Positions 49,172-53,540 of a DNA stretch of 64,000 nt are shown one piece after another. The DNA comes from Ectocarpus siliculosus (lineage: Eukaryota > Sar > Phaeophyceae > Ectocarpales > Ectocarpaceae). The stretch lies in the NCBI GenBank assembly GCA_000310025.1, contig FN648545.1, positions 2,763 through 66,762 on the forward strand, read 5' to 3'. Positions within the stretch are counted from its first letter, which is position 1. Each line of letters starts with the position of its first letter. Position numbers and translations under genes: made by a program. The notes beneath the pieces were generated by a model. That model worked only from the letters and a program-made list of their open reading frames with translations, was not told where the DNA came from and did no database searches.

Positions 49172-52100
49172 CTACTCCGCTCTCCTGTCCACCCCCATGT
49201 AGTCTGTCGTTCTTATGTTCTTCTCAGGCTGCTGCATGGTATCGACTTCCTTATTGAGGTCGTTGTCCTCCTCTTCCCCCTCCTCCTCCTCTTCCTCCTC
49301 CTCCTCCTCCTCCTCCTCCTCCTCCTCCTCCTCCTCCCCCTCTCGTTCGGTTCGCAGCCGCCCCTTGCCTTTCTTTCCTCCTTCGGTGACGATGTTGGCT
49401 GCCCCGCCCGGATTGTCGCACCCGCCACCACCCCCATCCTCATCATCCGCGGCCGTAAGTTGGTTTGCCGTCTTAATGGCTTGTTTGACGTGTGCCGGAA
49501 TTTTGGACCCTCCCGAGATGAGAGCGGAGGACGTCGCTACTATCCCGGACACAGGCTCCCACGACGAGTCCGGCAGTAGCTTGCGACGAGAGTTCACACG
49601 GGAAGTCGCGTCCCCTGCTATGTAGGTAGGAGAGAAGGACGCTCCGGCGTACGTGTCGAAGGACACATTCACCGCGCTGTCGACCAGGCGTTTCCTAGGG
49701 GTGTACCAGTGAAGAGCTACCTCCTCCTGCCCGTCAATTTCGCGCTTGTCGATGACCTTTCCCACAAGAAAAAGGGCTCCATCCGACAGAAAGAACGAGA
49801 AAGAGTGCATTGTGCCATGTGCCCATGTCTGTTTATCCCGCAGCCGCCGCCCCCCCCCCTGGGCGGCACGGCAACTTTGTTGATGCTGCCGTAGACGTTC
49901 ATCGAGATCGTCTCCGAACGAGCTGTCGTCGTCCTCGTCGGAGAGACCGTGTGAGAGACCCCCCTCATCGCCACCGTCGTCCAGGTCTGGTTCAGAGTCG
50001 TCGCCGGAGACCTGAAGAGGAAGCCAGGATGTGTCCAGGTCGAATGCCTTGGTTCCCGTCGTCCTTAATATTCTGAGGCTGTCGGCGTGATCCAGCTTGA
50101 CGCGCTTTTGCTTTTCCGGGTCTGGATCCATTAAGGCGCGTAGTAGTTCGGGACAACGGTTTTGCAACGCTTGAGAGCTTTGTTTCTTGCAGCATCATGT
50201 CATTGACAAAGGCGAACAACGAACGCAGGATACGTCATTACCAGGGCTCTTGTACGGCAAGCAACATATTAGGATACTCTCGTTGAACGATATTGCGAAA
50301 AAAAACGAAAACGTACCGCCGACGTAGGCGACTGGTAGCTTCTGCCACGAGGCTTGTTGGCGCAGCTCTACCCGGTGAATTATTTCATCCTGGACCAGTT
50401 TGAGCTCGTAGGGCGGGGTTGACTCCAAGTGCACTGCATGTGCGTGCATCAGGCGCCAAGGGCTGAATCCGTCCCCACTCCCCACCGTCTTCCCATCTTC
50501 GCTGAAGCCTAACCAGTCCTCGTGGTGCATCTTCATCTTTACCGTCACCACCATCGAGGGCCCCTCCTTGTAGATTTTGAAAGCTTGGTAGTTGGTGATG
50601 TTTGGGATGCGTCGTGTTACGGGAGCCACCAGGTCCTTGAAGTTGGCGAGGTTTTCTAGGGTCCGGCATTTTACTTGTACCTTTTTGTAGCCGCGTCTGA
50701 AGGCGTCCCCCCGCTCCTCTCGCGTGAAGATGTCGACCCCTTTCACCGCTTTGGCGAAGCTTCGCATCAAAATGGCGCAAATATGACGTGGGCAAAAGGG
50801 GGGGGCACGAGACGAACAAGAAAGGTTGGGGTGTCTTTTGTAAATGGTTGACGTCGGGATTTAATTGTCGGCAAGATGAAGATGTGGATATACGCCTTAG
50901 ATCAACCGCACCCCGAGGACAAAGGCTCGATCACGAGGGATATACATTTATTTCATCAACAAATAGTAGGCGCTGCAAGACGAAAAATGTAACGTCCCTC
51001 GAACGCACAGTGGATACATACTATACGTCGACCATCCTGTGCAATATTCTTATGTGTTTCTTCCGCGACGACTACTCACCAGGAGAAAATCTGGTCGATC
51101 TGGATGTGGGTGTGGCCAACCATCATGACGCAGAGCGTGACCGTCCTCATGATTCCCCGACCAACCATCGCTGCCAAAATGCCCATGAGGTAGTTGTTCT
51201 TGTTCTCGGCGACAGTGTTGTCCACCTGCACGGTCACGTCTCCCAGGGCATGTTCCCAGGAGAGGGTCAGTTCCATGAACTGGTAGTACAGCGCCGTTGC
51301 GACGAGATTTGTACCTGCGACGGAAAAACGTGTCACGCCCCCATAGCACGAGAACATACATGGTGAGAATAAAACGTACATACATGACGATGTCCGCAAA
51401 TTCATTGGGTTTATGATACCTAGCTGTCTTTTTATCTCGCGCCACGTAGAACTAGACTTGTGCCGCGGCCCAAGCCAAACGGCGATACGCGTTGAAAGGA
51501 CAACATCAATGCAACTGGGATCAAAACCAATGAAGGCGGCGGTCGCCAATCAACGTAAATATAACGCGACTGCCAAGCGTACTATCCCTGCGTTAGAGGT
51601 GTGAGCATGGCAGTCGGGCATACTGCCTGCGCGCGGCAATGCACCCTAACACCAACCGACGCAAGCCTCATCACATCATCACCACGCAAGCCTCATCGCA
51701 TCATCACCGTAACTAACTGAGCAGTGTCGTAGCAAGCGGCGAACATTTCGACCATGAACGAACATGCAATGAAAGAGTTTTATCTTCTCGCTACCGTCCG
51801 TGAATAGCTTGCTCCCTTCTACGTTCTCAGATGTAAAGTCTCCGACCCTGCTCGAACATGCCTCAAACGTGAGTCATCATGCGCACTCACCCGTGCCGAG
51901 AATCTGGGGGGCGAAGAACACGTTCATGACCATCCCGGCGACGAGCACATCGTATACCTTCGCGCGTTCGCCATACCCCCTGGAAAACAGGAATTAGACA
52001 GGGGGCTGTGCGAGCGCGCGATGGGGTGTGGGGTTGCGATTCCTCGTGTTGGATGAAGGGGCCGACGGGACTGTTACTACCACCTATTTCTTCTTTTCCT

Positions 52101-53540
52101 CACGACCGGTGACCTGTCCACGTTCGCTGATACCACGCTGATTTAAGTTAACGTAACCAATTACATTAAAGTATGTGTTTTCCGCGTAGCCTACTCGACA
52201 AATTGATACTACGTTACTAAAGCAACGGGTTCCCTTACTTGTCGTCGATCCCGTGAGCCTTGTCCTTGGACAGAGGGACAACGAAGTTGCTCTGGTTGGC
52301 GCCGTCCATCATGCAGTAGGGCTGGTCCCACGGCACCCCGTTCATCTTGGCATTCGCTGCAGCCGTCTTAAGTTTTGAGATTGCCTTCCGGTCGTTGCTC
52401 ACGTCCTGTCGACACGAACACGAAGGCACAGATTAGCTGCTCCGGTGTGCCCACCCCTGGAACCTCTTCTTGGGGAGGTAGGTGCGGTAGACAAGGGGTG
52501 TCTAATATATACTGTACATCCCCGGGTTTGTGCTGTGGCGTCTGTTCAAAAAACATGTTGGGTTGTGATGTCGTCGTATGACGCTGTAAACCACGCAAAT
52601 AGCAAATACATACATACGCACCTCCATGTGGTCGTCGTACCCCTTTCTCTTCAGGTCTTTCTCCGCCTCGTCCTGGATGCCTCTGGAGCCGGACTGCGTT
52701 CCGAAGATCCCAGACTTGAGGAGCGTGCAGATCTTGCAAAGCATGCAGTCTCCGGTTGGTTTCAACTTGAGATGGGGGAACTCTTGGGCCCATATCCTGT
52801 TGAAGTACTCGCGCGTGCAGAGGGCTGCGTCCAGTCCCACTAGCTCCCCGTGGAGCTCCTTCCGGGTATGGCTCTCGTACTCGTCAAACAACTCCTGTGA
52901 AGATGACAATAGTCGAAAAGAGAGGCGTGCATGGATGGTGGATGGATGCGGCTGCCAGTAGCAGTATTTACGTACTCCTGCTGTTGCTGTGGCAATGGCG
53001 ACTCGTCGATAGGTAGTGGTAGATAGAAGAGTACAGCAGCAGTAGGCTTGTATTACCAATCAGAAAAAGGCTAACAATTGGATAGACCACTCGGTCAGCG
53101 CGAACTGGTCAACAAATAAATGATATAATATTATCAAGTTACTGCGGATCGACCTTTTTTGTACCTGCGCGATGCTCCACACACACACCCACGACCACCA
53201 CCACCACCATGGAACAAGTCGGAAGGAAGTACGAACGAGAGTACACCACATACAGAAGACTAAAATTGTTGGCGTCTTTGGGCTATCCTTCCTTCCACAA
53301 ACTGAGGAGGGAGGGTAATGTTCCCTCCCGTCACAACCCAAATACATACGCGCAGTACATACATACATACAAACATACATGCATATGAAGTGCGTACACA
53401 TACATACATTTTCGTTCTTGAGGTAGAGGTACTTGTCGTCGGAATTCGGCATGTGCTGCGCGAACGTGTCCTGGTAGTGCTGAAGGAAGCCGATGGCCCT
53501 GTCCCTCTTGGGTGAATCTCTGGTCTTTTGCACAGGACAT
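49172..53540 (-). CDS. DUF7869-type protein, seven exons, possible transposase-like enzyme
   Basis: Exons on the - strand: 53,540-53,408; 52,894-52,622; 52,405-52,239; 51,979-51,891; 51,314-51,080; 50,759-50,317; 50,169-49,172. Every junction is GT-AG and every phase agrees, giving 778 residues from the first exon found. That exon starts in phase 2, so a 5' exon with the ATG is missing. Numbering from it: CMLCKICTLLKSG is a Cys pair near residue 105; MMDGANQSN (Asp169), VDNTVAENKN (Asp252) and GHTHIQIDQIFS (His288, Asp294) are the blocks that define DUF7869. Spacing and fold suggest an RNase H-like DDD site; this is my inference. The C-terminus is acidic, with a run of about 20 Glu encoded by a (CTC)n microsatellite. 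The head-to-head gene starts at 53,995. Length and integrity suggest a functional or recently functional gene. Confidence 0.8.
49258..49346. repeat. (CTC)n microsatellite encoding poly-Glu
   Basis: About 89 bp of near-pure CTC/CCT. On the - strand it is in frame in the last exon of the DUF7869-type gene and encodes the Glu run. Triplet length changes would keep the frame. Confidence 0.9.

Follow-up and report, generated by a model that had tools for sequence, protein, structure and literature searches.

Judged from sequence, the DUF7869 gene at w49172-53540 of Ectocarpus siliculosus very probably codes for a DDD transposase, that of a giant Sola-1-type DNA transposon which is 21.4 kb long and moves by cut and paste. 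The window, i.e. the whole stretch of DNA analysed, is 64,000 nucleotides long and corresponds to positions 2763-66762 of contig C106; window coordinates are marked with a w, and the genome searched comprised 189.5 Mb in 492 contigs. The original prediction had proposed that this gene may be an uncharacterised DDE-like transposase. The transposase part of the proposal is supported by a multicopy element bounded by terminal inverted repeats (TIRs) and target-site duplications (TSDs), by the retention of three Asp residues and by purifying selection in distant paralogues. The word "uncharacterised" finds no support, since the element matches, in length and layout, a giant Sola-1 transposon already published from Ectocarpus.

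The part of the gene found in the window consists of seven exons (b-h) on the minus strand:

w53408-53540, minus strand: exon b (second exon), with AG/GT sites
w52622-52894, minus strand: exon c, with AG/GT sites
w52239-52405, minus strand: exon d, containing Asp169 (codon w52304-52306), with AG/GT sites
w51891-51979, minus strand: exon e, with AG/GT sites
w51080-51314, minus strand: exon f, containing Asp252 (codon w51220-51222) and Asp294 (codon w51094-51096), with AG/GT sites
w50317-50759, minus strand: exon g, with AG/GT sites
w49172-50169, minus strand: last exon h, joined in phase, with the acidic tail and the stop codon

These exons share one frame, as had been claimed, and its first stop is the terminal one at w49172; AG/GT splice sites were present at all six exons b-g of the window copy. 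The three Asp residues were also located where they had been placed, Asp169 in DGANQSN, Asp252 in VDNTVAENKN and Asp294 in GHTHIQIDQ. The protein used for the Pfam search was joined by eye from these exons and from exon 1 of contig C94. It matched PF25273 (DUF7869) with an E-value of 3.3e-28 (99 bits, against a Pfam gathering cut-off of 26), which confirms the family assignment, and DUF7869 was the sole family returned at E-values up to 1. A stretch of about 58 bp in an intron (w51674-51731) is missing from the other five near-identical copies and resembles a short tandem duplication.

The gene is not intact within the window, contrary to the original prediction. The ATG at w53540 is out of frame with the gene body, whose frame opens mid-codon at CPVQK, and the window part of the gene has no start; its first exon is absent from the window. 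Among the five other copies in which exon 1 was read, four (C94, C206, C362 and C365) showed an ATG and in-phase joining, while that of C296 carried a frameshift. For the window copy, a sequence matching the exon-1 region, the putative first exon, was found outside the window at C106:77477-78725, about 21 kb off and beyond approximately 20.9 kb of inserted DNA.

A 1-kb probe from the gene revealed five more places in the genome at 98-99% identity, one of them covering 731 of the 1001 probe bases, and two at 73%. The similarity among copies extended well past the DUF7869 gene. A complete element was delimited at C94:48036-69449 (21,414 bp). Its TIRs, of 281-282 bases each, are 89.5% identical over 285 columns and begin with AACCGGGAAAAC, and a CAGA TSD occurs at each flank. 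Both of the complete copies showed 4-bp TSDs (CAGA and CTTG), neither of which could be extended to 5 bp. Probing the genome with the terminus detected at least 11 repeat ends of nearly full length, plus one partial match. The suggested search for repeated termini around genomic copies thus yielded TIRs of about 282 bp together with 4-bp TSDs. The window contains one end of its own copy and the DNA inserted into it:

w44081-44084, no strand assigned: left target-site duplication CTTG; its counterpart, also CTTG, lies just past the opposite end of the element at C106:89120, outside the window
w44085-44366, plus strand: terminal inverted repeat, 5'-AACCGGGAAAACTTAGACTTCGCG; its partner lies at C106:88836-89119 on the minus strand
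w44085-53787, minus strand: in-window part (about 9.7 kb of 21.4 kb) of the Sola-1-type element, which resumes outside the window near C106:77477
w53788-62302, plus strand: unrelated transposon in intron 1, with arms at w53790-53822 and w62270-62302 that are 88% complementary; the right end is provisional

Since the element ends at w44085 and at C106:88836-89119, with CTTG at both sides, the window copy measures 42,273 bp from end to end, a length made up of the element and some 20.9 kb of DNA inserted later. The window copy is best read as a full-length insertion that was subsequently divided when some 21 kb of other DNA entered the transposase gene within its intron 1. The DUF7869 gene is therefore part of a mobile element; as the gene is multicopy and TIRs and TSDs delimit its element, the reading as a syntenic host gene present in single copy was rejected.

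The inserted DNA begins at w53787. The transposon that was described as lying next to the gene and as live-looking is located inside the element, in intron 1, rather than beside it. Its left end reads GGGGCGTTTTATACATTCC, and a stretch of about 186 bp from it (w54815-55000) was found at no fewer than 34 genomic places. None of four probes used to find where the Sola-1-type element resumes matched within the window, and further inserted DNA must follow the intron-1 transposon before the element resumes.

Twelve places in the genome scored above the Pfam cut-off, namely the six near-identical copies and six others. Asp252 and Asp294 were kept at all twelve, and Asp169 was kept in all eight of them where its exon was read (the six near-identical copies, C106b and C125); the three residues are thus conserved wherever they were read in this genome. 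In the C460 paralogue, exon d was sought in 801 bases and not found. Exons b-g of the six near-identical copies contained no indels, and five of the six had no stop; the C94 copy has one stop at residue 70. The C296 copy has lost one acceptor in addition to its exon-1 frameshift, and the C365 and C362 copies are identical over exons b-g. The pN/pS ratio was 1.1-1.5 in five pairs that include the window copy, where substitutions are few, and approximately 0.3-0.8 in the other nine pairs of near-identical copies, which exclude it. From these close copies we infer transposition activity; the stop, the lost acceptor, the frameshift and the ratio of the window copy caution against taking it as present-day activity. 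In seven comparisons of distant paralogues, pN was 0.17-0.28 against a pS of 0.43-0.71, which shows, at the level of codon comparison, long-term purifying selection.

One other gene, with several exons, was made out in the element (C94:51404-58504, minus strand of C94); it is divergent from the DUF7869 gene, in a head-to-head arrangement on the opposite strand. The first exon is ParB-like and contains DGNHRLAACKE; it matched a ParB-like family of PHROGs (PHROG 620; E = 5.7e-4) and, over the same exon, a DNA methyltransferase family (E = 0.0066). No significant match for this gene was found in Pfam, NCBIfam or the PDB. The later exons look methyltransferase-like from motifs judged by eye. These motifs appear degenerate, with DPG in place of DPP, the usual form in methyltransferases, and therefore the protein may be an altered methyltransferase. 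Residues ~210-238 of the hand-chained methyltransferase query, a stretch of about 29 residues, gave about a hundred weak genomic matches, and this stretch is probably a dispersed repeat and not an exon.

The two-gene pair recurs in the genome, clearly in one divergent lineage and partially in two more. The clear case is C106:134-146 kb, where the same head-to-head pair includes a ParB exon (46% identity; 1.5e-18), exons resembling the methyltransferase part (44%) and the majority of the DUF7869 exons. This lineage is situated about 45 kb past the distal end of the window copy on the same contig; the inverted repeats found between 137 and 156 kb were all short (21-75 nt). At C95:97-104 kb, three exons keep the order and orientation of the element, one ParB-like (39%; 1.1e-8), one resembling the methyltransferase part (43%; 1.2e-18) and exon c of the DUF7869 gene (42%; 3.6e-11); no DUF7869 core was among the matches listed there. 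At C460:34-43 kb, order and orientation are again the same, with weak ParB (E = 0.056) and methyltransferase-like (E = 0.002-0.003) matches and the closest DUF7869 core match 12 kb further along. C125 is an exception, as a weak ParB-like match (E = 0.013) there faces the DUF7869 gene and is not head to head with it.

Anatomy and published descriptions make membership in Sola-1 most likely. Dinatale and colleagues described giant DNA transposons in Ectocarpus, including the 21.5-kb Sola1-1_Ec32, in which the gene opposite the transposase encodes a 1104-aa ParB-like and DNA methyltransferase protein (PMC12477816). The element described here has nearly the same length (21,414 bp) and likewise carries a ParB-like and putative methyltransferase gene opposite the transposase gene. 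Nested insertions, present in the window copy, are described in the same paper as a feature of most giant families (PMC12477816). Elements of the Sola superfamily have a DDD transposase, TSDs of 4 bp and TIRs that measure 11-1124 bp, and some exceed 15 kb (PMC10741241); the 4-bp TSDs, the TIRs of 281-282 bases and the three Asp residues, predicted to be catalytic, agree with this description. Given these matches in length, gene layout and hallmarks, the element type is not new and has already been published. The likeness to Sola1-1_Ec32 is one of description and not of sequence, and the name DUF7869 does not occur in PMC12477816 as searched.

Some features count against this assignment. According to Table 1 of PMC12477816, a single Sola-1 family has 1989 copies, of which two are intact, compared with the at least 11 near-full-length TIR ends detected here. 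Sola-1 elements of bivalves average 5.4 kb, and most Sola elements measure 2-9 kb (PMC10741241), whereas the present element is 21.4 kb long and has a second gene. Among other algal elements, transposons of green and red algae encode ParB-methyltransferase proteins that are called similar in PMC12477816. The KDZ giant transposons (PMC12477816, PMC12730594) are comparable in being very large DNA transposons of eukaryotes that carry accessory genes, but the protein encoded here showed no KDZ match in Pfam, and a KDZ identity was dropped.

In giant Ectocarpus elements, extra genes are frequent and movement in trans is thought to occur (PMC12477816). The DUF7869 gene could accordingly be cargo in an element mobilised by another protein, encoded within the element or supplied in trans, and the approximately 5 kb beside the terminus on the DUF7869 side are covered by one open frame only, which has no Pfam match. 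However, when the open frames of at least 40 aa in the C94 element were compared with C106b and C125, matches were confined to the DUF7869 gene, plus the ParB-like gene in C106b, and seven other pieces of the element gave no Pfam match better than E = 0.015. The gene opposite the ParB-methyltransferase gene is, moreover, the one named transposase in the published element (PMC12477816). We consider a cargo role unlikely. A slightly smaller probability is given to a new DDE/DDD superfamily that resembles Sola-1 in size and layout only. The likeness to Sola drawn here is one of anatomy and description, no paper containing the word DUF7869 was found among the literature searched, and a 4-bp TSD is not decisive by itself because such TSDs also occur in Ginger1 and some IS481EU elements (PMC10045372) and in Kolobok (PMC9587614). 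Against a separate superfamily, TSD length, DDD residues and TIR length all fit Sola (PMC10741241), and the length of 21.4 versus 21.5 kb and the opposite-strand ParB/methyltransferase gene fit Sola1-1_Ec32 (PMC12477816).

The introns of the gene and the length and near identity of its copies would also suit a family of host genes, whether domesticated or ordinary, spread by segmental duplication. This is highly improbable, as the similarity ends at the same inverted repeats within differing flanks, and the complete copies are both flanked by 4-bp duplications. From element anatomy, DUF7869 is best read as the domain that carries out catalysis in the Sola-1 transposase. Within the literature that we searched, this assignment of DUF7869 to a Sola-1 transposase has not appeared in print.

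Searches for structure and for relatives outside the genome were less informative. AlphaFold2 prediction of one 78-aa exon alone, run without an alignment, gave an all-helical model with a pLDDT of 57, too low to speak for or against an RNase H-like fold. A crude propensity scan over two lineages gave no clear picture, and the best hit among solved structures by sequence was to an unrelated protein (E = 0.11). No DUF7869 relative was detected in viral contigs by protein, alignment and DNA motif searches, nor in prokaryote genome contigs and plasmids. These absences say little about the spread of the family, since the collections contain few eukaryotes.

In the mechanism that we propose, the N-terminal part of the transposase would bind the ~282-bp inverted repeats. 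The DUF7869 domain would form an RNase H-like core; by means of Asp169, Asp252 and Asp294, this core would cut the ends of the element and join them to staggered target DNA, giving rise to the 4-bp duplications. The ParB/methyltransferase-like protein may serve as an accessory factor, and what it binds and modifies would probably be the DNA of the element itself.

A broader proposal can be made only tentatively, and we think it may well prove wrong as a whole: that throughout eukaryotes DUF7869 as a whole provides Sola-type transposases with their catalytic domain, and that in brown algae the Sola-1 transposase has an obligate partner, a ParB-methyltransferase marking the element's own DNA. 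If so, the many unnamed DUF7869 genes would be copies of Sola or Sola genes that were domesticated, and the ParB-methyltransferase would act as a self-encoded epigenetic licence for transposition. The recurrence of the transposase/ParB-methyltransferase pair suggests that it is old within this one genome, which would make the proposed self-methylation of the transposon testable. The unnamed Pfam family DUF7869 gains a likely function, probably as the core of the Sola-1 transposase, and annotators could then recognise DUF7869 genes as transposon genes.
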